DNA of 27,086 bases from Paramacrobiotus metropolitanus (lineage: Eukaryota > Tardigrada > Eutardigrada > Parachela > Macrobiotidae): positions 1 through 27,086 of the forward strand of contig NW_026570619.1 of the NCBI RefSeq assembly GCF_019649055.1, given 5' to 3'. The stretch's first letter is position 1. Each line of letters opens with the position of its first letter. Positions 1 to 26,655 of this stretch are shown piece by piece. A program made the translations under genes and the position numbers. The notes below the pieces were generated by a model, which did not search any database, had not been told where the DNA came from, and was given only the letters and a program-made list of their open reading frames with translations.

Positions 1-588
1 CAAAAGATTAAACAGGCGCTGCTGAATCAGAAGAAACCGCAGAACGATACTGCGCAAGAAGAAAATAGAGCAGCATGCGAAATTCGAAAATTTTTGGCAG
101 AAAATGACAAAACGAATGAACCAAGTTGCGAATGTTGCGGAGAGATAAAGCCAAAGTTTTGGAACTGTTCAGAAGACGAAGAAGAGAAGCTGGCAAGGCA
201 AGAATGGATTAAGCAGAATATCACCGTTAGTAGTAAAGATGAAAGGTCACCTTCCGTTGGAAAAGTTCAAGTGAAAGGTCGCGGAGCAGATGCGAACGCT
301 AAAGGTCACGGTGAAAGTGCCGTGTTAAAAGGTCAAGAAACAGACTTGACACTGCGAACAGCGCAGCAGAAGAATAGCGAACCGGCACAACAGGACTCCG
401 AAGACTCACTTGTTGATGCAGTAACTCTGCAACAGAAGGAAAAATGGCAAAAAGTGGCCTACAGACCGAATGGCAATCACGGGATGTGGATACCTGTGAC
501 GCCAAAAGCAAAGCAGAAAGCGAGAATGTCACAGGAGGATTACTGGGACATGCAACAGTTGCGAACGCAATGTGAAGAAAGCGATTAG
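1..588 (+). CDS. 5'-truncated ORF of the retroelement, charged, with a Cys cluster
   Basis: The frame is open from base 1 and ends at TAG 586-588; no start codon is visible in the window. The first ATG-like choice near 94 is really TTG, so the true start is probably upstream. The product is rich in K, E and Q with no membrane segment. A cysteine group (C43, C45, C46, C56, counted from base 1) resembles a small metal-binding knot; a similar group recurs in the segment just before 2,902. Several AAAGGTCA copies are read here as E-R-S-P, K-G-R and K-G-H. The position upstream of the protease suggests the C-terminal part of a gag-like region, but no capsid or CCHC knuckle can be named. Function unknown. 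Confidence 0.5.
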   Translation, partial: QKIKQALLNQKKPQNDTAQEENRAACEIRKFLAENDKTNEPSCECCGEIKPKFWNCSEDEEEKLARQEWIKQNITVSSKDERSPSVGKVQVKGRGADANAKGHGESAVLKGQETDLTLRTAQQKNSEPAQQDSEDSLVDAVTLQQKEKWQKVAYRPNGNHGMWIPVTPKAKQKARMSQEDYWDMQQLRTQCEESD

Positions 589-1005
589 AAGAGTTGGTTA
601 CCGGGAAACCAGCCCAAGGGTCACTGAACAGTCCCAGCATTCAACGCAGAGGAATATAAGAAGACATGCGCTGACTGGAATTATTCACGTAATGCTCCGC
701 CACAGGATAAACCGCCGAATTATGGAGAAAAAGTCCCCATACAAAAGCTGACAAACGGCGGATTTGTCATGAAGCAACGAAAGGTCACAGGACTTAGCGC
801 AAAATGAACAAAAGGACGGTCAAATGAGATGACGCAAACGCAACAGAATAACGCAGTCGAAAGGTCACGGGACTTATCACAAGCACTGCATAAGGATGCA
901 AACGATCACCAGCGAACAGACGGAATGTCGTCACAAATTGATCAGACGAAAACGAACAATGAAGTGTCAGAAGGTGATCGAATGGATGACCGAAAAGGGA
1001 TATGA
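589..1005 (+). pseudogene. Continuation of the same frame, interrupted by stop codons
   Basis: The frame of the previous ORF stays protein-like after its stop but is cut by TGA at 625-627, TGA at 805-807 and TGA at 1003-1005. The translation keeps the K/E/Q-rich style and motif copies at 780 and 860. After about 1,000 the coding signal moves to another frame (ORF starting at 1,002). Decay of this copy, stop-codon readthrough, splicing and base-call errors would all give this picture; I favour decay or error because single-frame lesions continue through the protease. Confidence 0.4.
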
Positions 1006-1337
1006 TGATTACATATGAAAGGTCACCAGATGAGATGAAAGATAGCGAAGAAGACGAATTGAAGCGAGCGGAGCAAATAACAAGTGAAGTCATGGAGAAG
1101 CTGCGAGATAAGCGAAATGAAAACCGTAAAGAAGAACTGATTCATCAGACGATAAACGAAGTGACTAAAGGTCACATGATGGCACAAAAGCAAACGAGCA
1201 AGTGCAGAACGCTGAAAAGGTCACCAGTGGTAAAATGGCTACAGAGAGAAGCAAATAAACAAGAAAAACCGCGAAAATTTTACGATGTTCGAACTAACGT
1301 TCCACACAGAATCGATAAGCTGAGCGAAATACTGTAA
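1002..1337 (+). CDS. Short lysine/glutamate-rich ORF
   Basis: 111 codons from ATG 1002-1004 to TAA. The product is strongly charged and probably helical or coiled, with three motif copies read in three different ways: E-R-S-P at 1018, K-G-H at 1167 and K-R-S-P at 1216. It overlaps the end of the preceding frame by a few bases and probably belongs to the same interrupted upstream polyprotein rather than being an independent gene. No family recognised. Confidence 0.35.
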   Translation: MMITYERSPDEMKDSEEDELKRAEQITSEVMEKLRDKRNENRKEELIHQTINEVTKGHMMAQKQTSKCRTLKRSPVVKWLQREANKQEKPRKFYDVRTNVPHRIDKLSEIL

Positions 1338-1340
1338 GGT

Positions 1341-1890
1341 CACAGCACTCCAGCTAAAGGGCAAGTGCTTCCCGATATGGATCCAGGACCAGTATCGCTC
1401 ATTCCCGTGAAATGTAAGATTCATACATTGAAGATTCAAAACGGAAATTGCCCAAAAGAATTGAAGCGTATACACACGAAGTGAAAGTGGGAGACATAAA
1501 GGTCAACGCAATGTTGGACACCGGCGCTGAGACGTCGCTGATCAGCAAACCGTTTGTGAGAAGAATGGACTTCACATGCTCCCATTGCCACCAGACAGAT
1601 TGGTGAAAATAAACGGAATTAGTGGAACGTCAGGATTCCTGGTGACGCATTACTGTAGCACCAGTGACCTTAAGGAAGAAGACAAGCGAACATTCATTCT
1701 ACGTCCGACCGAAGTGTGACGACGTACAAGTGTTATTGGGATTTGACTTCTTGGAAAGAAATTCGTATTGATGGACAATGAAGGTGAAGAAGAAAAGAAG
1801 ATGACCCGAAACCAGTTGCCAAAGTACAAGTCGGAAAGGTCACCGAACTTGAAAAACAGAGAAACGTTCCAACTGCTAATAAAACGCTAA
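1341..1890 (+). pseudogene. Retropepsin-like aspartic protease, broken by frameshifts
   Basis: The catalytic signature is clear: a strand followed by A-M-L-D-T-G-A-E-T-S-L-I-S, with D-T-G at 1517-1525. The conserved C-terminal strand L-L-G-F-D-F-L lies near 1,733-1,753 but in a register that needs two frame changes between the two motifs (about 1,570 and about 1,717). Further shifts lie near 1,465 and 1,762. Such proteases act as dimers and process the Gag-Pol polyprotein. Both key motifs survive while the frame does not, so this copy cannot make the protease without recoding. The cause may be mutation or sequence error; the breaks are left as seen. Confidence 0.65.
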
Positions 1891-2463
1891 TCCCAGTACC
1901 AGAGGCACCGGGAAACGTAAAGAAAAAGATGACGCAAAAGAATTGTCACCATTTGGGCAGTTGCAAATGATTCGGCAAGAGATCGAAAACACGTTAAACC
2001 GGACAATGCTGACAAAAGGGAAGAAAAGGTCATCCCAGTACCAGAGGCACCGGGAATGACAAAAGTGCAGCAGGAAGAAATTATCCCAGTACCAGAGGCA
2101 CTGGAAACGATAAACGAAAATGGAAAAGTTGAAAAAGTTATCCCAGTACCAGAGGCACTGGGAAAGGAAGACGAAAGGTTACCAGCGACTGAGAACTTGG
2201 AACCAGAGCGTACCTCGAACCTTTTCGAACCACGATCTGCTACCCAAAATGAAAGGTCACCAGATGAAGCTAAAGAAGAAGTAACAGAACGTGACCCTCA
2301 AAAGGAACCCTTTTTCGAACCACACTCTGCTATCAATGACGAAAGGTCAAAAACACTTGAAGAAATAGCTGCCACACAGAAAGAAGCGACAGCTGCGGCG
2401 AAACAATCGCTCGTGCCGGGCAGGGAGTGGGCAACGCCTATCCCAGTACCAGAGGCACTGGGA
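1891..2463 (+). repeat. Five copies of a 23-base hairpin repeat (I-P-V-P-E-A)
   Basis: The unit begins TCCCAGTACCAGAGGCA and ends ctggga or ccggga. Copies lie at 1891-1913, 2033-2055, 2084-2105, 2141-2163 and 2441-2463. In the best copies (2141, 2441) the ends TCCCAGT and ACTGGGA are reverse complements, giving a 7-bp stem around a 9-base loop. The last four copies, in the frame open from 1,933, read I-P-V-P-E-A-L/P, so the repeat could serve either as a peptide repeat or as an RNA hairpin. Spacing is irregular (142, 51, 57 and 300 bases), so it is dispersed rather than a simple tandem repeat. Confidence 0.8.
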
Positions 2464-2691
2464 ATAAAGACAGCTAAAGTATGGAAGGATAAAAAGAGTG
2501 AAAGGTTACGGGTTTTGAAACGAATAGCTGAAGAGGAACAGATGTTCACAAGTGAAATTCGTAACAAGGCACTCGAACAGTTGAAAGGTCACAGAACACC
2601 AAAAGAACCAGAGGTCATCGAGATATCCTCTGAGGACAAAAGCGTGACTCAATCGAATGTGAGGAAGATACCACAGCACAGGATAAGGTAA
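2056..2691 (+). CDS. Repeat-rich linker ORF after the protease
   Basis: 211 codons from ATG 2056-2058 to TAA 2689-2691; the frame is open from about 1,933, so the ATG may be internal. The product is acidic and low in hydrophobic residues. It contains I-P-V-P-E-A-L repeats and two copies of an F-F-E-P-(R/H)-S-A repeat (2215-2244, 2311-2340) that returns four times in the tail of the pol ORF. That sharing ties this segment to the pol polyprotein. Probably a disordered spacer; no enzymatic motif seen. After the stop the same frame remains open to 3,801. Confidence 0.5.
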   Translation: MTKVQQEEIIPVPEALETINENGKVEKVIPVPEALGKEDERLPATENLEPERTSNLFEPRSATQNERSPDEAKEEVTERDPQKEPFFEPHSAINDERSKTLEEIAATQKEATAAAKQSLVPGREWATPIPVPEALGIKTAKVWKDKKSERLRVLKRIAEEEQMFTSEIRNKALEQLKGHRTPKEPEVIEISSEDKSVTQSNVRKIPQHRIR

Positions 2692-2901
2692 AACCGCAAG
2701 CAGTCAAGGACATTAACTCCAGAAGAACGAGGCGGGAGTTGTCACCACGGTTACTTTGAGGACCCGTGCAGAATACAACCACAATGGGAATGTGCTGAAT
2801 GTTGCGAAAATGCCTCCCAAGATGACCTTTCAGAATGGCCGAAATGTAATGCCGCAATAGCTGACCTTAAAGGTCATGCCCAAAAGGAAGCGAAAAGCAT
2901 C

Positions 2902-3801
2902 ATGCGGACAAACGAAATGTGGAAACCACACATCGAACGGTATCATTGGAATAGATATCGAACGTGGCTGTCATGCGTGGAAAGCTTTATAATTGGGAGA
3001 GGCAAATGGCTAAATCATTGGCTACAACGTGTTGAAAAGGGAATCCAAGATCCCCTTGACCCGGTAGCAACCGAAAAGAGATTTGAAAGAGAGATAGAGG
3101 AGATGAACGAAGAAGGGGAGTTGTGGGAAGAAGCAAGAGTTGACCTTTTCTGGGACTTTCGCGTAAACCACATGTACAAAGGTGAAGGGAGGACGATAAT
3201 TTTCCCGGCAGGACTTGGCACACCTGTTTACGAGTCACTCGAAGCGTATTACAACGCGTTGAAAGAGGGGACCGAAGAAGCATTTGAAAAATACTGGAAT
3301 AAATTCGAAAGAGAAATTCCCACATTTGATGTCAAAGATATGAGAGAATTACAAGTAACCCGGAGAAGAAGGTTACCGGGATTGATGCAAAAGAAAAAGG
3401 TGACCTTTGCACCAGATCCAGACGGAGTGGATTACCCCGAACGAGGCGGTGATACGTGGTGCATGTATGAAACGATTCCAAATGATGAATGGGTCACCGA
3501 AGAACTGATGGCAAACTGCATTTTCGTCGGCCCCAAACGACCTAAAGGCTACGAAACAGTTCAACAGGATGGAATTGATAAAGGGACTGTAAAAGAAGCG
3601 GAAAAAGAGGAACCGGTCAAAGAGATACTTGAAGGAGGATCCAATGAAACAGAAGAAAGTTCAAAGTCGGCTTTCGATATCGCGCAGATGTTAACGGATA
3701 GAGGTGAAATGTGGAGGAAGTTTAAGGAGGAAGTGGAGCGAATATCGAATGAACAGCAAAACCCAGTAACTGAGGGCAAAACGGGAAAGGTCACTCGATA
3801 A
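2902..3801 (+). CDS. Tryptophan-rich helical ORF between protease and RT
   Basis: 299 codons from ATG 2902-2904 to TAA 3799-3801; the same frame is open from 2,692, and that extension carries a C-x2-C-C...C cluster like the one near base 127. The N-terminal half is rich in W, Y and charged residues (W at positions 7, 16, 22, 36 and 40) with several probable amphipathic helices; the C-terminal 80 residues are acidic and probably disordered. It is not a known RT, RNase H or integrase part. Its place between protease and RT is unusual for Ty3/gypsy elements, where these are normally close. It could be a structural or nucleic-acid-binding domain. Family not recognised. Confidence 0.5.
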   Translation: MRTNEMWKPHIERYHWNRYRTWLSCVESFIIGRGKWLNHWLQRVEKGIQDPLDPVATEKRFEREIEEMNEEGELWEEARVDLFWDFRVNHMYKGEGRTIIFPAGLGTPVYESLEAYYNALKEGTEEAFEKYWNKFEREIPTFDVKDMRELQVTRRRRLPGLMQKKKVTFAPDPDGVDYPERGGDTWCMYETIPNDEWVTEELMANCIFVGPKRPKGYETVQQDGIDKGTVKEAEKEEPVKEILEGGSNETEESSKSAFDIAQMLTDRGEMWRKFKEEVERISNEQQNPVTEGKTGKVTR

Positions 3802-3810
3802 CGGTGAGGA

Positions 3811-4293
3811 ATGTCCGCCGACCGAGCTGACCGAAAAGCCATTAACGAGCCTTTGAAGAACATAAATGAAATGGAAAAGTCAAAATCGGACGAAGAAAGG
3901 TCAAACTCCGACCAATCAGAAAGGTCACCAGCGAGAATCCGAGTAGCAAGGAGTCACCCGAGAGTCGCCGCACGAAATGGGCGAAAGGCAAAAAAAGGGG
4001 ACAAACCCCTGCTCAAAAATTCGAAAGCGAAAAAACTTAGCGATTCGCGGGAAAACGAAAGTGACCTTTCGTCAGAAGACGAAGGAGTTGACGAACGCCC
4101 ACTTGAAAAGACTAACAAAGGTCAAGCTACTGCACAAGAATACGAGAGCAGTAACTCAGATTCAGAGTGGACGAGTTCAAGTGATAACTCAACAACTTCG
4201 GAAGATTCAGGTGTAAGTGACCTTTCGGAGCAAGAGGATTTAATGGACTTGGATGAGGATGACGAAGTAGATGAGAAAAAAAAAGGATATTAA
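3811..4293 (+). CDS. Acidic Ser/Asp/Glu-rich ORF overlapping the pol start
   Basis: 160 codons from ATG 3811-3813. Its first half is basic (K/R), its second half acidic (S, D, E), a polarised low-complexity layout. It overlaps the pol ORF by 23 bases across a run of nine A (4276-4284); pol is in the +1 frame relative to it. Only TAA and TGA codons at 3,799-3,807 separate it from the previous ORF in the same frame. It may therefore be a separately started leader or the last part of an upstream polyprotein that enters pol at the A-run. Function unknown. Confidence 0.45.
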   Translation: MSADRADRKAINEPLKNINEMEKSKSDEERSNSDQSERSPARIRVARSHPRVAARNGRKAKKGDKPLLKNSKAKKLSDSRENESDLSSEDEGVDERPLEKTNKGQATAQEYESSNSDSEWTSSSDNSTTSEDSGVSDLSEQEDLMDLDEDDEVDEKKKGY

Positions 4294-7200
4294 AGTCAGA
4301 AGGTTGAAAGTGGAAAAAGCCAGAATGTCGAAAGATGTGATTAAAGTCTACAGTGATCAAAGAATTAAATTGAAACCGTCAAACTGCACAAGGGTAAAGG
4401 TCAAGATGGGAAAATATGCACCGGCCCAGAACAAGCTGATGTTTACACCGGTTCCACAAGTGGAAACTGAAGTGCAACCGTTGGCAGGAGTGACGGATCA
4501 TAGAGGAAAATACTTCGAAATCGTCATTGCGAATCATAGTAGCAAATACAGGATCGTGAAGAAAAATCAGCTTCTCGGCTACGTTGAGCCGTATGAACAT
4601 ATGGAGAATGTAAAGGTCAACGCAGGGACAGTAAAAAACGTACTCGAGGACCCTGAGGTGGACGATACAACAAAAGCTGAATTGAAAAAGATAATCGAAA
4701 ACTTGAAATTGGGACCTGACCTTACCCAAGAACAGAAGAACGACGTGTATAACGCATTTTGGGAATTCTGGAAGGTCCTACCCACATCAAAGAAACCATA
4801 CGGCGATGTGAAAGGGGTCACTCACGTAATCGATACGGGAGATGCGAAACCAGTAAAATGTAACCCGGCCAGAACGAGTTGGACAGGCCGTGAATTTATA
4901 ACGAAACATATCGAAGAGATGTTGGCACAAGATGTGATCGAACCGTCAGACGCCGAGTGGAGTTTTCCAGTCGTGCTGGCAGTAAAGAAAAACGGCGACG
5001 GGACCATGGGGACAAGATTTTGTGTCAACTACATCATGCTTAACAAGCTGACGAGAAAGAATAACTACCCGCTACCGAACCCAGATGAACTGCTTGACGC
5101 GTGCGCAGGTAACAAATATTACGGAAAAATGGACTTACAAAGTGGATTTTGGCAGATCCCAATGGATCCAGCGTCAATCAACAAGACGACCTTTGTAACG
5201 CAAGATGGAATGTACCGATTTAAAAGAATGCCATTCGGCGTATGCAACGGACCAGCAACATTCCAATTGTGTATGGATAAAGTACTTTCGAAAGCGAAAA
5301 GAAAGGGTTGCGTTTTCGGGTATATCGATGACGTTATCTTCGCTGGAAAAACTTGGGAAATCTTCATGCAGAACTTGAGAAACGTCTTAATGAGCTTAGT
5401 CGAAGCAGGATTCACGATTAAGCCAACGAAATGCGAATTCGGAATGAGACAAATGGGATTCCTGGGTCACATACTCAGCGAAGACGGAATTCGAATGGAT
5501 CCGGAAAAGGTCACCGCGGTCTCAGAATTTAAACGGCCTCAAACAGAAAGGCAATTAAGGTCATTCCTTGGACTGGCGAACTATTACCGCAAATTCATAA
5601 TGGGATACGCACAGAAGACTAGCCACCTGTACGAGTTGCTGAGACAAGATAAACACGTGAAGAAGGACTGGACGAAGGTACATGAAGATGAATTCAACAG
5701 TTTGAAACAGTTGTTATGTGAAGGTCCAGTACTGGCAAAGTTTGACCCCGCGAAACCGACCGTCATTGAATGCGACGCGAGTAAAGAAGGAATCGGAGCG
5801 GTGCTGTCACAAGATGGGCATCCGATCGCGTACGCCAGTCGTGTCCTACATGGAGCGGAGAAAAATTACGGTGTAACGGAATGGGAATGTCTGGCAGTAG
5901 TATTTGCTGTCAGGAAATTTAAGCCGTATATCGATTACGCAGAATTCACCGTAAGGACGGATCATCAGGCGCTGACGAACTTGTTGAGGTCAGAAACGAA
6001 TAAAGTTGGAATGAACCCGCGATTGACAAGATGGGCGATGGCATTACAAGGTCATCAGTTCAAAATCGAATATAAACCTGGAAAGTACTGTGACAATGCG
6101 GATGCGTTATCAAGAGCGCCGATTGAAGGTCCAACGTGCCAAGAGGAGGAATTTGATGAGATTCCAAATTTCGAGGACTACAAGAAGGAATTTGACACAA
6201 AAGAACCAGCGATTGAAATTGGCCAGTTGTTCTTACAGATGGTGGAACAACGAGAGAAACGATTAAAGGTCACTTCAGTTACGGCGAACGAGTCGGCTGA
6301 AAATGAAGCAAAAGTGAACCGAGTAAAAAGCTGGTTGCCCACGGTTAGTGACTTAAAGGTCACCGGACTTGACGCGGAATCAACAATTCAGAATGGAAAG
6401 GTCACGGGACTCGATGAAGCAGCGGAGAAGAGAGATGACCTTTGGGAAACGGACAAAGTTACACAAGCGTTGAACGAATGTCCGATCAAACTGCTGAGAT
6501 TCCCAAAACAAACGAAAAAGAGATACAAACCGTTACCACGCTGCAAGGTCATCAGAGATTGGAATGAACTCAGCACAGCGACAGTCCGTATCGTTAACTT
6601 GCAAGGAGACGAAGAAGACGAAGATGATTCAAATTTGCAGTTGAGGAATAAACAGCTAAAAGATCCCCATCTGGCAATGATTATAGATGAATTGGAACAT
6701 CTACCAGACGCAGAAACGAGATCAAAATTCGAAGTACATTACCAGTTGTGGAACGGTATATTGTACCGAGTAAAAGATAAGAATGGGAAACTTGAAAGGT
6801 CATATGTGGTACCGTTGTCCATGCGAAGAGCGATAATTCACGCATTGCACGACGAGAAAGCAGCAGGACATCTGGGATTCGAAAAGACATTATCAGCGAT
6901 AAGACTACGATATTACTGGGACAGAATGAGCACTGATGTGAAGAATTACATACTTGCCTGTCAAGGATGTCAGTTCCGCAAGACACCGAGAAAATGTCCA
7001 CCGGGTAAATTGCAAGAGATAAAGGTCGGACATCCATTCTTCCGAGTGTACGCTGATCTGAAAGGACCGCTGTTACCACCGAAGAAACGCGGATACAAGT
7101 ACATAGCGGTGTTCATCGACCAGCTGACGAAATATGTGATTGCGGTACCAATGAAGACGGCAACGGCTAAAGAATTCGCTAAAGTGTTCGTAAAGCACGT

Positions 7201-8509: not shown

Positions 8510-8694
8510 GGATGCAGCCGAGAAGGAACTTCTTGATCGGATAACTAAAGGACGCGAGAACAAATAACCACATAGACATAAATAAGGGGTCACACTAAAT
8601 TAAAAATAAGAGTTGGGAAGGCAAAAAGAAAGGTCACCACTGTGCAAAAAGTTAACTTTTATTGTTTCGTTTTTATAGAAGGTAAGCACAGTTA
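8510..8694 (+). promoter_or_regulatory. Spacer with splice-acceptor-like tract before the second large ORF
   Basis: The 185-base gap between pol and the next ORF changes composition abruptly to pyrimidines at about 8,655-8,679, ending ttttatag just before the ATG at 8,695. A TTAAC branch-point-like sequence lies upstream. This looks like a 3' splice site that would place the second large ORF on a spliced mRNA, as for env in errantiviruses and retroviruses. A donor-like AAGGTAAGC follows immediately, so a short exon is also possible. One AAAGGTCA copy is at 8629. Confidence 0.45.
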
Positions 8695-11600
8695 ATGGAC
8701 AGATTGGAACGACAAAACTCGGATAATTCAGACTCTGAAAGTATCGGAAACCCACTAAAAGCATCAACACCTATAAGAATGGAAGGCGAATACGGTTATG
8801 ACACCTCATATGGTGAAGGATCGACGTCGTCAGTGGGAACGGCTCAGAACGAACCTGGAACAAGTCAAGGAGGTTACTATGGCGGCCAGGGGTATTATGT
8901 GTATCATGATCCGGGACAATCGACGAACTACCAGGACACGGTCAACTGGGTGCACCACGGCTCACCTGTCGGAACCCAGTATTCGGGACAAGCAACGGGC
9001 GCCCCTTATCAACCGTATTCAGGATCGTATACCCCACCGGCGGGACCATCGCAGGTGATAATGGGACCGGCAAGAATGCTGATGCCGCCACCACAACAGA
9101 CTCCACCGAATCGATTTACGGGACATGGGGGATTCACCGGAATGCTAGTGACCCCAGTACAGTCACAAAGGTCATCTCCGATATTACCGCCTTTTCCGGA
9201 GACGGGAGGCTTGTCATTGTCGGAAATAGGAGCGCCTCGCATGAGAACACCGCAGCAACTTGGAGCGCAACGATTTCACCGGAACTCGCCACAGAAAGGA
9301 GGGAGACGAGGCGGAAACCGGTTTGATTCACCACGACCGCGAGGCATATTGCCATCACTGGGCCCTAACTTGGACGAAACTGGACCAGATGGGTTACGGT
9401 TGACGCCACCAGGCGAACCTTCAGTACACGAATACGCGCCGAAACTCCCTTTGGACCTCAAAGATGATGATGCGCGTTTAAACGTGATCGTGGACAAAGC
9501 AGAAAAGTTGACAGAAGCGGACGGAAAGGCCATTCAGGACTTTAACAGGATGTGCCGTGACCTTTACAGAATTCATATGAGAGTGGAAGATGAACATGGA
9601 TGGTATGGAAAGTTGATCAGCCTGGAGGCAGTCATCAAACCATGCCACACAGCATTGAAAGAGAAAACAAAAGTGATAGAAGTCAAGCGCAAAGAATTAG
9701 CGATAAAAATTGCATCGATGTGGCAATATCATCCGGCAGTACATGGCAGGCAGTGGCCGCGGATTATCGAGAAGGTTCTGAGATACCTTAAAGTATTTCC
9801 GGAAGAGAAAATGATCCCAACGACTAGCAACGCAGGACCATCCAAGCCATTAGTCGAAAAAGCCACTTCGGTGGATGAAATGTCTGACAGTGACCTTTTG
9901 GCAACAAAGAGAAAGATTGATGCCGAATTAACTGAACGAGCAGAAAGGTCACGGGCCAGCTCGACTGCAGGATCAACACGAGGACGGACCAGTTCGGTTA
10001 CAGAACCATCCAGCGGGACCGCGAAGAGTGGAAAAAGAGTAAGGTCACCGACGATAAGCCCAAAAGAAACTGACAAGAAAGGGCAGCGAACGAAGAAGGC
10101 CACGTCAGGTAAAGCAACACCAGCTGAGCCGGCAAAGCCACAAGGCCCAGTCCCAGTGGGTAGAAAGAGTGCGCCACCCACACCGGCCGGAACAGAAGGT
10201 CAGATTCGATTCCCGAAGTGTAGAAGTTTCACTGCCAAATACACTGGCGAGGACCATAAGGAACGAAAGGTTACGGCACGTATAGTCGATAAGAAAACGA
10301 ATAAAGAGATCGACTCGTATAATCCCTTCGCGGATAGGTCAGTTAAGGACGCCATTGGGGAAGAATCAAAAACTGTGGTCAACGAGGCGTTACAGTTTGT
10401 TCCCCCGGAAGAACGTCATAATCCACGAGTTCTCATTCAGATGTTGAAGCACGTGGTATCCAAAGTTGCGACCGAAGAAGATGCATGGATCCGTATTAAA
10501 GTGGGCACAAATGACGACCACTTGGCATATACATACACCGTGGACGGCCAATTGTTGACCAAAGAGAGGACCCGCTCAAAGCCGACAGCAGATCCAGATC
10601 CAAAGAAACGGTCGTCGGATGATTATGAGTCGACCTTGAGATATACAGAGGCGACAAGCAGAAAGGTCACCCTCAGACTTTTCGCTGGTAATGGAGAAGT
10701 TGTGGAAACCATAACTGCTGTGATAGTTGACCCAATAACAGGAGACCCGGTTCCATATGCTCCATGGGATGTATCAGAAGAGAGTGCCCGTAATGCGAAT
10801 CAGGCAGCCATTGAGCAGTTATGGAATCTGATACCCGAAAGTGACCGGGAAGATCCGGTAGTCCAAGCAAGTACACTGATCAGTATGATGAGGCATCGGG
10901 CGGAGATAGATGAAGCGCATTTCCGGCTTACAAGACGCATGGAAGACGGATCGTATAAAACGGTATTTTATGACGCAAAGAAGAACCCTTTGTGGGAGGT
11001 CGCCTCACCGGGACAAACGAAAGAAACACCCCACTTGGAAATTCAGCCCCCGGCACAAGAAGGCGGAGCCGGAGAACCGGAAGAAGCGCAGGGCACATCG
11101 GCAAACGTAACTGAAACAGGAGGGGCCAGACGTTCGTTACAAAGAGTACTCGAAATCGCCCAAGGAAGTCATGACCACCTTCAGTGTGATGAACCAAACT
11201 GTGCCCACTGTAATTCACCTGGTGATGGTGAACCAGAGTCCGAAGATGAGGACTCAGCTGAAGAAGATGAAAACTCAGATGAGGAAATGGTTGATAAACA
11301 CAAAAAGCCCTTGAGAGTCGCCAAGCCGAGGAAGGCACCCAAATTGGAAGAAGCCATGAACCGCGAAAAAACGGCTAAGAAAGGCGATTTCCTGAAAAAA
11401 CGAAGGGAAGAAGAAGATAAGAAGAAACGACAGGGAGAGGAAGATAAGAAGAAAAAGAGCGGTGACGAAAGCGATAGCACGAGCACCGGGAAGAAGAAAA
11501 AGGAAGGGTCAAAGAAAAGAGACGAACCAGCGCCCCATGATGTCGAAATATTAGATGAATCGGTTGGCGAAGTTGAAGAAAGGTCATCGACACCTACAAC

Positions 11601-13134
11601 TTTAAAGAAGGTCATCCAATCAGCTACATCAAAATCAAAGGTCACTGAGCCGGACTCGCCAAAACCCAAAGGAAAGGTCATAGCGGTGAAACAAGTCGTC
11701 CCCATCGTCATTTCCGCATCCACGCCAAAAGAGCGCAAGGATAAACAAATTCGTGAAAAAGCGAAGCGGGAGACGTCCCGAGAGTCAGAAGCTTCGGAAG
11801 TGAGCCTACCAAGCACTTCGACGGTCAGTGCGAGGTCACACACGGATTCGAAGACAACCCGGTCAAGGACCACAGAACCAAGAAGCCTAGCGGAGGCCTT
11901 GGATAAAAGGAAAAAAGCAAAGAGCGAACCCGTTAAAACCAAAGGAAAGGGCAAGACAGCTATGAAAATCGATGCATTGGCAATGGTCAATTACACGGAA
12001 CCGGACGGAGAGAGTGAGTTGGACTTCACCTCGGATGAAGAATTTGATGGCCCGGACAATGATAACTTGACCACCGTCGATGAGATCATCAACGCATATA
12101 ACGGAGCGGAGAAAAATTTCACACGGATAAGAACAGCATCGGTGACATCGAAATTTAAAGCGGGCCTGAAGACATATTTGAAGAAACAGCGTCGTAGCTT
12201 CACTAAACAAAAGTTCGACGTTGTATTGGAATTTGCGCGGAACGCAGGAAAACTTATCCAGAAGCACCCGAATTTCTCGTATGAGGCCAAGCTGTTTAGA
12301 CCAGCCAGTTCGGATAAGGCGCTGACAACTCCAAATGAAGCCGTCCCAATGCGAGTAGAAAGGGCAATCGCAGGAATGACAAGCCCGTTGGGATCAACGA
12401 GCCATCGGATTAGCCAATACATTAACGCAGTCTGGAACGACGGGAATGGAATGATAAAGGAGATTGATACGTCCACTGAACGCGTGTTGCCCAAGATGAT
12501 TAAACAGAACATCCTCTCCACAACGAACGCGAATAAAGGACACCCAATTCGATACACAAGAGTCGGTTTGATACCACCGGAAAGACAGATCCACTGTCAT
12601 ATGTCTGACAGTCAGGATATGGAAAAGGTCACAGTTCCATTGAGCGGAGACCCGTCAACGCCGATATTGAACCAGATTGCACAGAAAACGGCTGAAGAAG
12701 AAGCAGCTCGGCTTAAATCACAAGCCCCGAAAGCGTCCTGGACCAGGGGACCGATGGATGACGAAGCGGAGGAAAGCGACGACGATGCTACAACAGCTCC
12801 TCCTGGACCTGCGACAGAAAAAGATGAACAGTCGAAAGGTCAAGAGACATCGCACAAACAGGAGAAAGAAAAGGTCATGCTCCCGATGGATAAGGCAGCG
12901 GCAGAAGCTGAAGCGGATTCGGCGCGACAGGTGTTTCAGAAATCACTGTTCACGCCACTAAAGGAAGTCTTCGAGAAGGAACGATCGAAGTCAGCTGGCG
13001 ATCTAAAAGGTCAAGAGACTTTGCCGCAGGAGGAAAAGAAGACAGCCGAACCAAAATCGGCGGGGTCATCATCAGGATCATTGGCAAAGCTGAGGATCGA
13101 CGAAACAGCGACAGCCGACCCAACGGAAAAGTAG
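8695..13134 (+). CDS. 1479-residue accessory protein with duplicated domain
   Basis: Starts at ATG 8695 and ends at TAG. Residues 1-250 are rich in G, Y, P, Q and S and probably disordered. Residues about 255-370 form a helical domain with conserved-looking W and H residues. After an S/T/K-rich linker come two copies of one domain, about 506-625 and 648-765; they align over a T-A-x-I-V-D strand, a helix and a P-E-x-x-R-x-x-P-x-V segment. A Cys/His group (H826, H828, C831, C836, C839) could bind metal. A long K/E/S coiled or disordered stretch (about 850-1090) precedes a second folded region (about 1100-1320) and a charged tail. No signal peptide or membrane helix is visible, so it is not an ordinary env. 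It may be structural or nucleic-acid binding. Not matched to a known family. Confidence 0.8.
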   Translation: MDRLERQNSDNSDSESIGNPLKASTPIRMEGEYGYDTSYGEGSTSSVGTAQNEPGTSQGGYYGGQGYYVYHDPGQSTNYQDTVNWVHHGSPVGTQYSGQATGAPYQPYSGSYTPPAGPSQVIMGPARMLMPPPQQTPPNRFTGHGGFTGMLVTPVQSQRSSPILPPFPETGGLSLSEIGAPRMRTPQQLGAQRFHRNSPQKGGRRGGNRFDSPRPRGILPSLGPNLDETGPDGLRLTPPGEPSVHEYAPKLPLDLKDDDARLNVIVDKAEKLTEADGKAIQDFNRMCRDLYRIHMRVEDEHGWYGKLISLEAVIKPCHTALKEKTKVIEVKRKELAIKIASMWQYHPAVHGRQWPRIIEKVLRYLKVFPEEKMIPTTSNAGPSKPLVEKATSVDEMSDSDLLATKRKIDAELTERAERSRASSTAGSTRGRTSSVTEPSSGTAKSGKRVRSPTISPKETDKKGQRTKKATSGKATPAEPAKPQGPVPVGRKSAPPTPAGTEGQIRFPKCRSFTAKYTGEDHKERKVTARIVDKKTNKEIDSYNPFADRSVKDAIGEESKTVVNEALQFVPPEERHNPRVLIQMLKHVVSKVATEEDAWIRIKVGTNDDHLAYTYTVDGQLLTKERTRSKPTADPDPKKRSSDDYESTLRYTEATSRKVTLRLFAGNGEVVETITAVIVDPITGDPVPYAPWDVSEESARNANQAAIEQLWNLIPESDREDPVVQASTLISMMRHRAEIDEAHFRLTRRMEDGSYKTVFYDAKKNPLWEVASPGQTKETPHLEIQPPAQEGGAGEPEEAQGTSANVTETGGARRSLQRVLEIAQGSHDHLQCDEPNCAHCNSPGDGEPESEDEDSAEEDENSDEEMVDKHKKPLRVAKPRKAPKLEEAMNREKTAKKGDFLKKRREEEDKKKRQGEEDKKKKSGDESDSTSTGKKKKEGSKKRDEPAPHDVEILDESVGEVEERSSTPTTLKKVIQSATSKSKVTEPDSPKPKGKVIAVKQVVPIVISASTPKERKDKQIREKAKRETSRESEASEVSLPSTSTVSARSHTDSKTTRSRTTEPRSLAEALDKRKKAKSEPVKTKGKGKTAMKIDALAMVNYTEPDGESELDFTSDEEFDGPDNDNLTTVDEIINAYNGAEKNFTRIRTASVTSKFKAGLKTYLKKQRRSFTKQKFDVVLEFARNAGKLIQKHPNFSYEAKLFRPASSDKALTTPNEAVPMRVERAIAGMTSPLGSTSHRISQYINAVWNDGNGMIKEIDTSTERVLPKMIKQNILSTTNANKGHPIRYTRVGLIPPERQIHCHMSDSQDMEKVTVPLSGDPSTPILNQIAQKTAEEEAARLKSQAPKASWTRGPMDDEAEESDDDATTAPPGPATEKDEQSKGQETSHKQEKEKVMLPMDKAAAEAEADSARQVFQKSLFTPLKEVFEKERSKSAGDLKGQETLPQEEKKTAEPKSAGSSSGSLAKLRIDETATADPTEK

Positions 13135-13180
13135 CGGTACACCGGCAAAGGAGGCTACAGATTACACGTTAGGGCCGGCA

Positions 13181-13690
13181 TTGGACGTGAATAATCGTAC
13201 ATGGAACGAAGTCCAGGCTGCGCTCCAGATTATTCGGGAAAAAGAAATGCTGGGTACGGATCTGAAAAGACAAGTCGCGATAAATTCGAACGGAAGGTCG
13301 TCACTTAACATGACCGAACGAGCCCTGAAACGAGCATATAAGGAAGGAAAGTTGGGATGTAAATACAACAAGGACAACAAAGTTGTCTACTACCTTCCGA
13401 AACAGGGTCAGGAACGAACACCCAGACTGAAAATGGAACTGGAGGCCTGGAAGATAGCCATTACAGACGTGGCTTTGGACGCCATCGGTGGTACCAACGG
13501 AGCGTCATGGAATGACCTTTCGAACTTCATGGCCGTCAATTACGAATTGGGAGAATTGAATATCGAAACTGATAAAGAGTGGATTAAGAATGCCGTCGAA
13601 GCCTTGATCGCAGACGAAGTGCTTCATATTAATCCAGATGGTCGAATTGACTTCAAGCCGTATAAACCACCGGCGAAGGAATCCGAGTAA
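13181..13690 (+). CDS. Possible tandem winged-helix protein, no proximal ATG
   Basis: About 169 codons ending at TAA 13688-13690. The frame is open from 13,094, inside the end of the preceding ORF and in its +1 frame. The codon at 13,181 is TTG, and the first in-frame ATG is near 13,247. Protein-like sequence already runs through the overlap, so this may be expressed as an extension of the 1479-residue protein. Two halves each look like a small alpha/beta unit: three helices followed by a basic hairpin (K-L-G-C-K-Y...V-V-Y-Y-L-P in the first, L-H-I-N-P-D-G-R-I-D-F in the second), which suggests winged-helix nucleic-acid binding. That fold call is inference from pattern only. Confidence 0.55.
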   Translation: MDVNNRTWNEVQAALQIIREKEMLGTDLKRQVAINSNGRSSLNMTERALKRAYKEGKLGCKYNKDNKVVYYLPKQGQERTPRLKMELEAWKIAITDVALDAIGGTNGASWNDLSNFMAVNYELGELNIETDKEWIKNAVEALIADEVLHINPDGRIDFKPYKPPAKESE

Positions 13691-13700
13691 ACGAGAGAGC

Positions 13701-13735
13701 GTAATATGCAGCGAGTAATGAACCCTGCATATTAC
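13701..13735 (+). terminator. Perfect 11-bp hairpin just after a stop codon
   Basis: Arms GTAATATGCAG (13701-13711) and CTGCATATTAC (13725-13735) are exact reverse complements around a 13-base loop, 10 bases after the stop codon of the preceding ORF. It could be an RNA stability or 3'-end signal, or a structure between cistrons. Listed as terminator only for want of a better type; no poly-T follows. Confidence 0.6.
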
Positions 13736-14029
13736 AGAAAAAGCATAAAATAGTTTAAAACGAAAGAGAAAAGTGTTATGAAAGGTCACCTGAAAGCAGT
13801 ACTAGGACTAATAGAAAAGGTCACAGTAGTCAGAGAGTGCTGATAACGTGACAAAGGTCACCATGTTACAGTGATAAGAAAAGGCAGCAGGAGCTAGGAA
13901 AGTCTCAGCTCAGTAACGGAATAGGCGTAAAAATGATAAAAAGCCTTGATAATGGATAGGAATGGAAAGGATTAACGTGGAAAGGTTATCATGATGGATT
14001 GTTTTATAATTGCAGATTGAAGAGGAAAA
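13736..14029 (+). promoter_or_regulatory. Non-coding spacer with motif cluster and splice acceptor
   Basis: About 290 bases without a convincing ORF. Three AAAGGTCA copies lie within 80 bases (13781, 13816, 13853), the tightest cluster outside coding sequence, and a near match at 13,980. The spacer ends with gttttataattgcag (ending 14015), a good 3' splice site 14 bases before the ATG of the next ORF. This parallels the tract before 8,695 and suggests a second spliced message. Confidence 0.45.
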
Positions 14030-14620
14030 ATGGCACAGAAAGGTCAAGCCACTTCGAAACGTACGGGAACGACGGCGGATATCGATCGGTTTACGGGCTA
14101 TAATCCAAAGCGTCCGGACTGTCTACGTAATAACAAAAAGGTTGATAAGAAATTTCCGTGCTACGCATGCATTCATAAGTTGGAGGACCCACATATTGTT
14201 TCACTCGTTGGGGTCTCGGAGGCCAAACGTGGGAACCTGGATGTCTTCCGCAACCTGATAAGTGCAAGGAACTACGGCAGCATCCCAGTGGAAGAGCGAA
14301 TGCTACTTGAGGATCGCTACCGAGAAGCGATCCGGAACAACGAACCCGGTTGGGATGAGACCTTAGAGCCGTTGAAGTGTCCACAAACAGACGCGTATCG
14401 AAAGAAATTTGAAGAAGATCAAGAGAAGATGCGAGTCCAGCAAATGGAAGATGAAATCAGAGCGAAAATTAATGCGGAAAATAAAAGAGCAAGTGAACAG
14501 GCCGCACGGGAAGCATTGCCCAGTACGTCGGGTTTAGCTGCACCCACGGGCATGGCCAGCCTTAATGAAGACGAAATGCAACTTGTACGACAGTCGCTCA
14601 TCATCAAATCGAGACGCTGA
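14030..14620 (+). CDS. 196-residue ORF with N-terminal Cys/His group and coiled coil
   Basis: ATG at 14030, 14 bases after a splice-acceptor-like sequence. The N-terminal part is basic, with a group C-x15-C-x2-C-x-H near residues 31-53 (P-D-C-L...F-P-C-Y-A-C-I-H) that could bind zinc. The middle is helical, and residues about 125-165 are a charged coiled coil (E/K/R/Q/M) before an S/T/G-rich tail. One motif copy at 14039 covers codons 4-6. A nucleocapsid-like or other RNA-binding role is possible from the basic, Cys-bearing N-terminus, but no family is recognised. Confidence 0.65.
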   Translation: MAQKGQATSKRTGTTADIDRFTGYNPKRPDCLRNNKKVDKKFPCYACIHKLEDPHIVSLVGVSEAKRGNLDVFRNLISARNYGSIPVEERMLLEDRYREAIRNNEPGWDETLEPLKCPQTDAYRKKFEEDQEKMRVQQMEDEIRAKINAENKRASEQAAREALPSTSGLAAPTGMASLNEDEMQLVRQSLIIKSRR

Positions 14621-14637
14621 CGAAGGACCCAGCCGCC

Positions 14638-15378
14638 ATGTCAGATGATGTGTTTAAGACACTACTCCGAGAGAAAAAGCGGCTCGAACAGGGTTTCGCA
14701 CCGGCACCATACATAAAGAAGGAAGTTGAAAGACGTATGGACGAATTACGTAAATCTCGCCGAACTGAAAGTGATGTGCTCCAGGCGCTCAGAAGTTTCA
14801 AACGGGACGAAGGTTTTATTCGACCTCGGTCGCCTCCGCATAGAGAAAGGTCACGAGGACATTCACGTGAACATGAGCGGACTTCTGAACGACAGAGAGA
14901 AAGGTCACGCGAACACTCCCGTGAAAGAACACGTGACTACCGCAATGAAAGGTCACGCGAACGTTCTCGCGATAGAGATTACCGCGGCGGAAGAGGATGG
15001 GTGCGCCATGGAAACGAAATAACAGAAATGAGTATTCAGAGGAAAATCGATACGGCAAAGATTTTGGCGGCGACGAGAGAACGTGAAGAAAAACGGCGTG
15101 CGGAGACATTCCGTACAGAGCCTGAAAAGCAAGGGCATCAGGTGCCGATGGGAGTTGCATTCCGGAATCGCAGTGTCAGAATGTCAACACCTGAAAGGTC
15201 ATGGAACAAAAGACGCGAACAAACGCGGAATCGAACGCCCGACCCACAGGATAAGAGATGGCAACAGAAGCCGCATTTTATGCGACCTTTGACTCGGGTG
15301 CAAGCAAAAGGTCATCAAGCGCTGAACGGGAAGATTCACCCCCGAAATATCAGCGAATGGAGTCAACAGTCCACGTAG
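14638..15378 (+). CDS. SR-like arginine/serine-rich protein
   Basis: 246 codons starting in a strong Kozak-like context (GCCGCCATG), 17 bases after the previous stop. Residues about 65-120 are an R-S/R-E repeat region (E-R-S-R-G-H-S-R-E-H and similar), followed by a G/R patch, like SR-protein RS domains and arginine-rich RNA-binding regions. There is no RRM. Several of the R-S dipeptides are encoded by the dispersed motif itself (14846, 14900, 14948, 15194), so the RS-like tract may have grown partly from motif insertion. A role in RNA binding, packaging or splicing control is plausible. Its last 121 bases overlap the next ORF in another frame. Confidence 0.65.
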   Translation: MSDDVFKTLLREKKRLEQGFAPAPYIKKEVERRMDELRKSRRTESDVLQALRSFKRDEGFIRPRSPPHRERSRGHSREHERTSERQRERSREHSRERTRDYRNERSRERSRDRDYRGGRGWVRHGNEITEMSIQRKIDTAKILAATREREEKRRAETFRTEPEKQGHQVPMGVAFRNRSVRMSTPERSWNKRREQTRNRTPDPQDKRWQQKPHFMRPLTRVQAKGHQALNGKIHPRNISEWSQQST

Positions 15379-15902
15379 TGGATCCAATCGTAAACGCTGT
15401 ACAAGAAGATGACTCGATGGAAGGGACCAGTTCGATCGCAGAGGCGTCTCAAGACAACGTAGCCCATCGACGAAATGTAATTCTGGACAGTGACCTTCAA
15501 CCGGCTACACCGGCGAGTAATGAACCGTCGCGGCCTGAGTCAGGAGAGCGACGTGAACCAGAAGGTCAACGTGAACCGGATAATCGTCGCCAAGCTGATC
15601 AGCGACAGAACTCCAGATTCGATAACCGACGCCCTGAAAGTATTGATATGGAATATAATACGACTGATATTGATGAACAAACGGTCGAAATTTGTCGATA
15701 TTTTGGAATTGAATCGGATTCGGTTGAAGCTAACAAAATTGGCACAATTCTGAGACAGCTGAGCCAATTCTTACTTGACCCGGGTTATGCGAAAGAAATT
15801 AAAGAGGAGTGGAACAAGGACTTTTTCGCCGGTTATTCATCCACCGCGATTCGGTACGGGACTGTTATCTCCCTATCAGACGGAATGGGCTACATAGCTT
15901 AG
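15258..15902 (+). CDS. 214-residue ORF, disordered N-terminus then helical domain start
   Basis: ATG 15258 to TAG 15900-15902, in the -1 frame relative to the preceding ORF, which it overlaps by 121 bases. Residues 1-130 are S/E/R/P-rich and disordered. From about residue 140 a folded helical region begins (E-I-C-R-Y-F-G-I...L-S-Q-F-L-L-D-P-G-Y) and appears to continue without loss of character into the next ORF, which lies in the -1 frame from about 15,887. The two probably form one protein in some copies or by recoding. A capsid-like helical domain is conceivable; not recognised. Confidence 0.55.
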   Translation: MATEAAFYATFDSGASKRSSSAEREDSPPKYQRMESTVHVVDPIVNAVQEDDSMEGTSSIAEASQDNVAHRRNVILDSDLQPATPASNEPSRPESGERREPEGQREPDNRRQADQRQNSRFDNRRPESIDMEYNTTDIDEQTVEICRYFGIESDSVEANKIGTILRQLSQFLLDPGYAKEIKEEWNKDFFAGYSSTAIRYGTVISLSDGMGYIA

Positions 15903-16768
15903 TGGACTTGAACTTATTAGATGTACCGTTGGATACAACTGACCCAATCGGGATGACACAGTTTTACTACTCAGATTATCCTGAACGACAAGAATATGTG
16001 GCTCAGTTTGTTTTACGCTATGTAAACCCGGCCTTCAAGTTGCTTGCAGCAAGAGCATCAGTAGGACTGCAAGTGGATCCTAAAGATTACGCCGCAAAAA
16101 GGATGGGGCAGAAGGTATTCGCTGCACGACTGGCACACTATAAGACACAGAACCAGTTGGTATCCAATACCATGAGAGACGATATTCCACCATTTTTCCG
16201 AGCTCATGTCGCTAAATTGGGGCAACCAATGGAACATATCAGCATAGCGCATACAGCTCGAAAGCCGCTGAAAAAGTGTAAGACACGAATGGAAAAGGGC
16301 AACTTGACACAGCGTCATGCCTCTCAAGTCGAAGAAAGGGTCAACAAAATCAAAGATTCCCTGGGCAGTGACTACGTCGAACCAGTGGACGGAGTTGAAA
16401 CGTACATCGATGAATTCCTGGTGAAGAAAAGCGACCGACGTCCGGAACGCGCCCCTAATCAGATGGGACGACGCGGTATACGGAACCAGCAGCTTCGGGA
16501 TAATCTCGCTGATGTGCAACGTCGACTAGCTAACGACCCCGATAACCGAAGATTGCGGCTCGAAGAAAATGACGCACGCCATCAACTCGAAAGGGTTAAG
16601 CGAAGTCGTCAAGGGAAAGGTCGTGGCCAGCGCGAAGTTGACCCGTCAAAGGTCATGGAAGTCGACCTGACGCAGCCAGTTGACCGCACTTCTGATCGAA
16701 ACCAACCGGAAAGTGCTAAGAAACGCCCGCCAAGAGATGGTGAGGGCGATTCAAATGAAATGGAATAG
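15809..16768 (+). CDS. Last element ORF: helical domain and basic tail
   Basis: Listed from the GTG at 15809; the first in-frame ATG is 15953. Sequence before about 15,887 is better explained by the overlapping ORF, so this reading probably starts by frame change there. The body (about residues 30-170) is helical with aromatic residues (Q-F-Y-Y-S-D-Y-P-E-R), followed by a strongly basic, R/D/Q-rich tail of about 100 residues that could bind RNA. It ends at TAG 16766-16768, and this stop codon lies within a hairpin. If gag-like, it would be unusual in sitting 7 kb after pol. Family unknown. Confidence 0.55.
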   Translation: MEQGLFRRLFIHRDSVRDCYLPIRRNGLHSLVDLNLLDVPLDTTDPIGMTQFYYSDYPERQEYVAQFVLRYVNPAFKLLAARASVGLQVDPKDYAAKRMGQKVFAARLAHYKTQNQLVSNTMRDDIPPFFRAHVAKLGQPMEHISIAHTARKPLKKCKTRMEKGNLTQRHASQVEERVNKIKDSLGSDYVEPVDGVETYIDEFLVKKSDRRPERAPNQMGRRGIRNQQLRDNLADVQRRLANDPDNRRLRLEENDARHQLERVKRSRQGKGRGQREVDPSKVMEVDLTQPVDRTSDRNQPESAKKRPPRDGEGDSNEME

Positions 16769-16793
16769 TGTTGATCGTTAGGATCACACTATT
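16764..16793 (+). other. 12-bp hairpin enclosing the last stop codon
   Basis: AATAGTG (16764-16770) pairs with CACTATT (16787-16793), and TGATC (16772-16776) with GATCA (16782-16786), leaving one bulged T and a five-base loop. The stop codon TAG 16766-16768 is inside the 5' arm. All 12 pairs are Watson-Crick. Possible roles are termination control or an RNA 3' landmark. Confidence 0.65.
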
Positions 16794-16854
16794 AAAAGGA
16801 CGTCTACGGCATTTTGTCGGTACGTTAGAAAGATGAAAACTGGTGTTGTATAAA

Positions 16855-16909
16855 GTACGTGACATGTGATATGTTAACATAAACTGTATTGTGTACTTGT
16901 TGTTTGCAG
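16855..16909 (+). other. Candidate 55-base intron in the 3' non-coding region
   Basis: A donor-like AAAGTACGT (GT at 16855), a TTAAC branch-like sequence and a T/G-rich tract ending TTTGCAG at 16909 occur in the right order and spacing for a very short metazoan intron. No transcript evidence can be seen. Confidence 0.3.
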
Positions 16910-16942
16910 CGTTTATAGCACAGAATTGCCTAAAGAAATCAT

Positions 16943-17405
16943 GTGGAATATCTATTGGGGTTGAAATTGATTCGGTCTATAAAGCCGGCCCCAAGGGAGT
17001 TGTTACGGCAGTTAGCCGGCTCTCCTCTCTAAGCGACTCAGTGTTATGAATGTACAAGAGAAACTACGGTAATCAAGCCGGATCTCTTGCAGACGAAAGT
17101 GGGCCACAAGCGGCGAAAAAGAGAAAGACAACAGGTGGAATATTGATGAGGTTAATTCAATGCGGCAACCAGCCGGCCTCATTAGAGTTGTCACGGTAAA
17201 CTGCGCCGGCACTCTTCTTAAGCGATTCAGTGTTAAAGGTGAAACGAGAAAAACTACGGTAATCGAGCCGGATTTCTCGTATTAACATGGGCTACAGGCG
17301 GCGAACAAGAGTAAAAGATTAAATGTGGAAATTTCATGGGGTAAACTCAATGCGGTAATTAGCCGGCCCCATCAGAGATGCTACGGTAAACTCGCCGGCA
17401 CTCTG
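16943..17405 (+). repeat. 190-bp tandem repeat carrying eight covarying hairpins
   Basis: Two and a half units start at GTGGAA 16943, 17135 and 17325 (periods 192 and 190). Each full unit holds three hairpins, A, B and C: A at 16955-16994, 17146-17182, 17336-17372; B at 16995-17025, 17184-17215, 17373-17405; C at 17055-17089, 17244-17280. All share an inner core CGGY-loop-GCCG and an A-rich left shoulder, closed by an outer stem whose sequence differs. C stems are CAAGAGA/TCTCTTG and ACGAGAAA/TTTCTCGT around a nearly identical loop, with two paired changes. A stems are TTGGGG/CCCCAA, ATGAGG/CCTCAT and ATGGGG/CCCCAT. A ninth, isolated relative lies at 16800-16825 (ACGT/ACGT stem). Paired changes point to a functional RNA structure. 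Confidence 0.85.
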
Positions 17406-17441
17406 GCCGCTCGAGGCATGTTGGAGTTGGATGTGCGACGG

Positions 17442-17926
17442 AAAGGTCAAATCAAGTCTTTATCAGGGAGGCAAGCAAAGAAGTGCTTGAAGGCCGCAGA
17501 AAATTGGCTAAGTTCCTCCATGACCTTTAATGGAAATTTGAAGAGAAGTCGGATGACCTTTGGGACCGTTACCGCCCAAGAGTCATCATAGGAATTCAAG
17601 TCGCATGACCTTTGGGACCATTAACCCAAAACGAGTCGCACATCTCAACTGATCATCTCAGCAAGGATGACCTTTATCAGGGAGGAAGCGAACTACGCTT
17701 GTCTACAAGACGTCCCTCCATGACCTTTATGGATCTCATTTAAAGTCGTACAATTGATACGCACCTTATTCCAAAGATTGAGTGAAGCAGTATTCCTAAG
17801 TCGTACTTGATACGCACCTGATTCTCAAGCGGATTGTGATGAAGTCGCATTACGGATGCGCAGGATTGCTCAACAGAGCGGAATGGGCCAAAGTGCGGAA
17901 AACGGTGGACAGGACCTGTGACCTTT
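17442..17926 (+). repeat. Packed hairpin array with TGACCTTT, 3' end of element
   Basis: Non-coding. TGACCTTT recurs at 17521, 17554, 17606, 17668, 17721 and 17919, and AAAGGTCA at 17442. Two modules have the same plan, GGAGG, inner hairpin(s), CCTCC, then TCCAT-gaccttt-ATGGA: 17467-17534 and 17681-17733. In the second, AAGCG/CGCTT (17686-17700) and GTCT/AGAC (17701-17711) sit side by side inside GGAGG/CCTCC, a three-way junction. Between them, GATGAC/GTCATC with inner TTGGG/CCCAA spans 17552-17587, and TTTGGG/CCCAAA lies near 17,611-17,630. CGTA/TACG hairpins in a repeated 22-24-base unit lie at 17743-17766 and 17798-17819, and CGCAT/ATGCG at 17846-17860. Confidence 0.7.
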
Positions 17927-17940
17927 ACGAGTCAGAAATG

Positions 17941-26580: not shown

Positions 26581-26655
26581 TGTATATCGACGAAATGAAG
26601 TACGAAAAGGACCAACTCCAGTTTATTAACAACACAACGCTGCAGGACTTCAAAT

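Follow-up and report, generated by a model that had tools for sequence, protein, structure and literature searches.

The stretch of Paramacrobiotus metropolitanus DNA analysed here (the window; 27,086 bp, bases 1–27086 of contig 399 in a 169.8-Mb assembly) carries what its coding content identifies as a Ty3/gypsy-type giant long terminal repeat (LTR) retrotransposon. Pfam matches to reverse transcriptase, RNase H and integrase were found in Ty3/gypsy order within the open reading frame (ORF) at 4271–8509, in agreement with an earlier note that had called the element Ty3 from its letters, and the pol protein was 97% identical across 89% of its length to a P. metropolitanus protein. The note had placed the element at 242–17926; it is in fact truncated upstream by the contig start and runs beyond 17926 to a 3' LTR starting at 18188. 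An exact count of the octamer AAAGGTCA/TGACCTTT gave 67 copies (50 plus strand, 17 minus strand), the number previously estimated by eye, with the first at 242 and the last at 17919–17926. As had also been reported, no exact octamer was present on either strand of the rest of the window (17927–27086, ~9.2 kb).

A second-order Markov model predicts ~1.4 octamers in place of the 67 present, and each of the 24 words that differ from the octamer at a single base occurred 0 to 6 times. Forty-nine octamers lie within the 14,826 bp of ORFs, and the other 18 lie at least partly in the 3.1 kb outside them. When the ORFs were shuffled by exchanging synonymous codons (protein and codon usage fixed, codons pooled over ORFs), the count was not reproduced: 1000 shuffles averaged 3.3 octamers and never exceeded 13, versus 49 observed, and shuffling codon order gave a mean of 0.8 and a maximum of 5 in 1000. 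Base composition and codon usage were thereby ruled out as the source of the octamers. Similarly, the 20 bp on either side of the octamer were as alike between copies (26.6%) as between random places (26.6%), which rules out the copying of longer repeat units. Gaps between octamers looked random and widely spread (coefficient of variation 1.04), the smallest being 24 bp.

Within ORFs, the plus-strand octamers were distributed over all three codon phases (9, 16 and 14), while minus-strand octamers were confined to two (2 and 8), because in the third phase an in-frame TGA stop would result. Of the two processes that the earlier note offered, selection or amplification at the nucleotide level, the first is upheld and the amplification of longer units is not. 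Part of the ERS repeats in the ORF at 14638–15378 is spelled by the octamer. These data support selection on the nucleotides of the octamer; the best explanation is that the family accumulated octamers by point mutation and selection along the whole internal region, coding and non-coding.

A complete relative was identified on contig 1 (C1). This element is 18.6 kb long and contains 87 octamers, none of them in its LTRs (336 bp at C1:201729-202064 and 335 bp at C1:220024-220358; 98.5% identical over 272 bp), which have TG...CA ends and are flanked on both sides by the target-site duplication GGCT. Its smallest gap between octamers is 15 bp. Ty3/gypsy LTR retrotransposons usually measure ~4–10 kb, a size that the contig-1 relative exceeds, size not being a defining criterion. 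Searches of the genome gave at least 59 matches to the pol piece of the window (window included; 87–100% identity; 56 of 2105 candidates scored) and at least 98 to that of the contig-1 relative (75–100%; 98 of 1506 candidates scored), indicating a family of at least dozens of copies. Beside one pol copy (C1:1787908), at least seven plus-strand near misses (C, G or T followed by AAGGTCA) were seen in ~10 kb (C1:1789238-1799315), a cluster that could represent a copy whose motif has shifted or decayed.

Conservation of the octamer between lineages was assessed over the 5.5 kb of the window that could be aligned with the contig-1 relative (74% identity), which represents only the more conserved third of the element. 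Here, 16 of the 25 alignable window octamers were identical in the relative, versus 537 of 5014 octamers in general (10.7%); one further site (780) differed by gap placement alone, eight had changed, and the relative had three octamers in the aligned part that are not present in the window. Motif columns were 95% identical, the ten bases adjoining them on each side 73%, and positions farther out 71%. The kept octamers were split evenly between the strands (8 plus, 8 minus), which points to double-stranded DNA as the form in which they are read.

A similar pattern was seen among closer copies. A search with the non-coding block at 17380–18187 gave at least 40 matches, window included (40 of 211 candidates scored), and 20 of the remaining 39, drawn from all along the list, were compared with the window. 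Across these 21 copies and seven sites, 133 of 147 octamers were intact in register, and two more were shifted by one column. Motif columns had a nucleotide diversity of 0.023, compared with 0.10 in their near flanks and 0.075 in the other columns; a value as low was reached by 1.25% of 20,000 random draws of seven 8-column windows. Because the sites had been picked by majority presence, their diversity is biased downward to some extent. In a 1.2-kb slice of pol, five motif-bearing copies kept 4, 5, 5, 3 and 5 of six sites, where the background ranged from 0.17 to 0.46; three of five were kept in the contig-1 relative, with a background of 0.08. Taken together, these patterns of substitution show that the octamer has been kept by selection in two motif-bearing lineages of the family.

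Other copies lack the motif. A copy on contig 44 (C44:722501-730500), with a pol piece 89% identical to that of the window (75% in DNA), has no octamer in 8 kb and keeps none of the window's octamers at 26 sites (part of them in alignment gaps), versus 12% of random octamers. In the pol slice, the copies at C58:467904, C287 and C1 ~102–120 kb keep 0 of 5, 0 of 4 and 0 of 3 sites; the last is visibly broken and has four octamers in 18 kb. These three and the contig-44 copy form one clade (support 0.998) in an unrooted tree of the pol slice; its neighbour is the motif-bearing copy C89:579323, and the longest branch leads to the contig-1 relative. With the root placed on this longest branch, an ancestor that had the motif and a single later loss would be the simplest account. 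Related copies therefore do not lose the octamer at a neutral rate in the motif-bearing lineages, and have lost it completely in one sister clade. One copy from each of two more distant pol lineages also had no octamer in 8 kb. In the broken copy at C1 ~102–120 kb (L006, L059, L060, L007), the words AGATGA, AGATCA, GAGATC and CAGCTGA are frequent, which may reflect a different motif or decay; no clear replacement word was found in the other motif-free copy examined, and we do not claim a replacement motif for the clade.

Table 1. Features of the element in the window, by position.
Feature	Position	Strand	Evidence or remarks
Octamer field, 67 exact AAAGGTCA/TGACCTTT	242..17926	both	exact count, shuffles, conservation
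ORF open at contig start, upstream of pol	1..588	+	64% identity over 88 amino acids to contig-1 relative
Short ORF upstream of pol	1002..1337	+	matched in three relatives (L011, L060, L063)
ORF with repeated peptide IPVPEAL	2056..2691	+	
Conserved ORF directly upstream of pol	2902..3801	+	44–67% identical pieces in three relatives
Acidic ORF overlapping pol start	3811..4293	+	
pol: reverse transcriptase, RNase H, integrase (H2C2 and rve); 12 octamers	4271..8509	+	Pfam
Accessory ORF, 1479 amino acids; 12 octamers	8695..13134	+	
Accessory ORF	13181..13690	+	weak linker histone similarity, below cut-off (E 0.013)
Accessory ORF with cysteine motif	14030..14620	+	kept in contig-1 relative, 36% identity
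Arginine/serine-rich ORF	14638..15378	+	
Two overlapping accessory ORFs (15258–15902, 15809–16768)	15258..16768	+	
Non-coding 3' block; 1 plus, 6 minus octamers	17442..17926	both	conserved in 21 copies
3' LTR, starts TGTGAGCG, without octamer	18188..18522	+	end assumes the 335-bp LTR of the contig-1 relative

Octamers are unevenly spread over these features (Table 1). Within pol, one falls in the 1302 bp of the catalytic domains versus 11 in the other 2937 bp, and density is highest in the 3' non-coding block (8.9 per kb over 17401–18187). Between the last ORF and this block, the interval 16769–17400 is octamer-free and has several GCCGGC-like words by eye. Among ten ORFs scanned, only parts of pol scored above the Pfam cut-off, ORFs 1002–1337 and 3811–4293 and the upstream ORFs of the relative lying outside that scan. 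A protein search with ORF 2902–3801 gave no homologue at E up to 0.001, and all five homologues of the 1479-amino-acid ORF were from P. metropolitanus. ORF 13181–13690 has no match in the contig-1 relative. Structure models of 2902–3798 and 14030–14617, built without an alignment, were too poor for use, and a scan of the window against Rfam at gathering scores gave no match. Repeated peptides (IPVPEAL and FEPRSAT-like) were seen at 1881–2476 and in the pol C-terminus, and likewise in the contig-1 relative, as short repetition at the protein level. Downstream of the element, 18933–19661 and 24269–25042 are diverged copies of one gene-sized unit lying ~5.4 kb apart (75–88% identical pieces), with minus-strand ORFs of 240 and 257 amino acids, and the start of a minus-strand ORF at 23069–23953 reads like an F-box protein by eye, no search having been made.

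The claim that the octamer saturates the element and nothing else holds within the window and fails genome-wide. The assembly contains 42,562 octamers, compared with 15,522 copies of the reversed word and 19,908 of the three first-base variants CAAGGTCA, GAAGGTCA and TAAGGTCA together, a 6.4-fold excess over the mean of these variants. Over the first 0.83 Mb of contig 1, outside the contig-1 element, 76 plus-strand octamers were listed (including a few in or beside other family copies), versus 38 for the three variants together, and fifteen 10-kb stretches held 11 octamers versus 4.1 expected. None of 21 stretches with scattered or no octamers (L001-L005 and L013-L028, the fifteen just mentioned among them) resembled the element interior, their sole two weak matches being to DNA beyond the LTR of the contig-1 relative. 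Other transposon families could hold part of the genome-wide excess. One of the 21 stretches has five octamers in ~300 bp of DNA unlike the element (L013:6774-7080; C1 ~331.8–332.1 kb), lying upstream of and at what we read as an apparent gene start, three of them as GGTGACCTTTATAT-like words, which makes it a candidate host promoter using the octamer.

The NBRE, AAAGGTCA, is described as bound by NR4A receptors as monomer or homodimer (PMC7901948), and the octamer equals this sequence exactly. Single, irregularly spaced sites suit a monomer-binding protein on double-stranded DNA. The host genome appears, from exon matches, to encode an NR4A-like DNA-binding domain: two exons on contig 45 (L044/L045; C45:296809-297642) together matched NR4A1/NGFI-B and Nurr1 best (134.7–135.9 bits; 130.5 for a longer NR4A2 chain), the next receptor class being RXR (109.5 bits). 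NR4A proteins read the leading A's of the site through a carboxy-terminal extension, and a first-position C marks the FTZ-F1/ERR type of site. Pooled over the motif-bearing elements, the first-base variants numbered 6 with C (CAAGGTCA), 10 with G and 10 with T, versus 154 AAAGGTCA; the rarity of C at this position disfavours an ERR/FTZ-F1 type of site. Furthermore, the base preceding the octamer is C in only 11 of 67 cases, which argues against a preference for CAAAGGTCA. The first base of the octamer and the one preceding it thus speak against a typical HNF4, ERR or FTZ-F1 site. The earlier suggestion of a nuclear-receptor site therefore stands as regards the AGGTCA half-site that the octamer contains; the HNF4/ROR type that it named gives way to the exact NBRE of NR4A.

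These data lead us to the proposal that the octamer is a site for a host NR4A-type (NBRE-binding) receptor, read in double-stranded DNA and exploited along the whole element, which we consider to have about an even chance of being correct. Both the binding, by NR4A or a receptor of the same specificity, and its effect are what we infer from the site and its distribution. A host receptor of this type would bind octamers as a monomer along the element body; most likely, the bound receptor would keep the chromatin of the element open and transcribed where the receptor is active. Binding would in this way counter silencing along the body, as VANC does on VANDAL transposons. The placement of pol sites mostly outside the catalytic domains, their greatest density in the 3' block and their absence from the LTRs would suit a body-wide effect better than a classical LTR promoter. 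We raise more tentatively, as a possibility that we rate well below the receptor site itself, a stronger version in which the whole body, coding sequence included, is a dense array of monomer sites for a stress- or signal-responsive host receptor, to which the element's proteins have been bent to fit. Such an array might act body-wide, through open chromatin or by loading linear complementary DNA with a nuclear protein for import, not as an LTR promoter, and the sister clade would have given it up.

Several observations weigh against an NR4A-type reader. There are 63 zf-C4 matches in the genome, of which many are lone exons (the reading covered 30 short stretches at these matches); other receptors read AGGTCA half-sites, so that NR4A is singled out by its sequence match alone. 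No carboxy-terminal extension was seen for the tardigrade NR4A. In the pooled motif-bearing elements, TAAGGTCA (10 versus 1.3 expected) and AAAGGGCA (7 versus 1.4) are also in slight excess, and the site may therefore be less strict than the exact octamer. NR4A proteins can also silence, Nurr1 being reported to recruit CoREST in the silencing of HIV (PMC9295971). The sister clade holds several copies without the motif, and the LTRs, the usual location of a retrotransposon promoter, carry none, a weak counter-point because only ~1.6 octamers would be expected in 335 bp.

The strongest alternative, which we judge unlikely and yet the best of those considered, is that a protein encoded by the element reads the octamer on its own DNA, with the host-wide copies as side effects or older remnants. 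VANDALs, the model for such a system, are plant DNA transposons. In Arabidopsis, VANC proteins are described as acting in this way, with a short motif enriched in one transposon family, over-represented where VANC is bound and read as DNA (PMC5735166, PMC10398659). Related VANDAL families differ in their target motif; here, it is the presence of the motif that differs between clades, with two lineages enriched and a sister clade without, and a replacement motif was not demonstrated. The element has several unexplained ORFs, some conserved in the contig-1 relative (2902–3801, 14030–14620). Set against this are the Pfam scan, in which only pol parts among the ten ORFs scored above the cut-off, and the distribution of the large accessory ORF (8695–13134), which is unmatched in a motif-bearing relative and matched in motif-free copies; since its presence does not follow the motif, it is disfavoured as the reader. 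In addition, the motif matches an established receptor site of hosts and is over-represented in host DNA unlike the element. VANDAL motifs are described as lying in non-coding tandem repeats, with a transposon-encoded reader (PMC5735166, PMC10398659), unlike the present animal LTR retrotransposon, in which 49 of 67 sites lie in ORFs, dispersed and without shared flanks, and none of the element's own proteins was recognised as a reader.

It is also conceivable, but in our estimation improbable, that the octamer works in RNA, where AAAGGUCA (plus) would pair with UGACCUUU (minus) and so fold the 18-kb genomic RNA or help to package it, or where an RNA-binding protein would read it. The two orientations are exactly complementary, and a cluster of six minus copies (of 17 in all) at the 3' end could pair with the body. 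The plus bias, however, is no greater than codon composition yields (3.1 plus and 0.2 minus in the shuffled ORFs), several copies in one clade do without the motif, and the host-wide excess is left unexplained. The conservation of both orientations and this excess favour recognition of double-stranded DNA over RNA pairing or a basic protein.

Of similarly low probability, in our view, is a reader from among the other host nuclear receptors (of the HNF4, COUP-TF, RXR, ERR or FTZ-F1 type), or a host factor of a different kind. Other zf-C4 stretches in the genome encode DNA-binding domains that look FTZ-F1-like, ERR-like, COUP-like and RXR-like. The rarity of C at the first position, the lack of preference for C before the octamer and the wide spread of the gaps between sites speak against such a reader. 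Finally, that the count has no function and was made by base composition, codon usage, repeat amplification or assembly error is very improbable: some octamers do sit in repeated peptides such as ERSP, but shuffles fall far below the count, flanks are not shared, conservation exceeds that of flanks between and within lineages, and many contigs carry the motif.

Among known systems, the Drosophila gypsy insulator comes close as a retrotransposon sequence with many sites for a host DNA-binding protein, described as 12 Su(Hw) sites in 340 bp of the 5' untranslated region (PMC2374998), whereas here there are 67–87 sites over ~17.5 kb, coding sequence included. HNF4-alpha sites in Alu likewise represent a nuclear-receptor site recurring in a retroelement family, and are reported as spread by a human repeat family (PMC3252374), whereas here dozens have accumulated within each element. 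No description of such an octamer-saturated element was found among the listed titles and abstract openings of the open-licence literature searched, and Paramacrobiotus is not mentioned in the available portion of a paper on tardigrade transposons (PMC11071193). Enrichment of a short exact word in genes is familiar from the DNA uptake sequences of Neisseria and Haemophilus, which are bacterial, serve DNA uptake and have no relation to this octamer.

If NR4A is the reader, AAAGGTCA would be expected to be the best-bound word, with CAAGGTCA and AAAGATCA weaker. Should a host receptor read these sites, the family would show an animal retrotransposon escaping silencing in a sequence-specific way, or using a host factor along its whole body to some other end. 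Motif-bearing and motif-free relatives within one genome would then offer a natural comparison, through which resistance to silencing along the whole length of an element becomes testable. The excess of the octamer across the genome also suggests a cis-element in wide use for the control of tardigrade genes. For the family itself, the octamers show selection at the nucleotide level that was strong enough to write the identical eight bases into unrelated protein regions in three phases.

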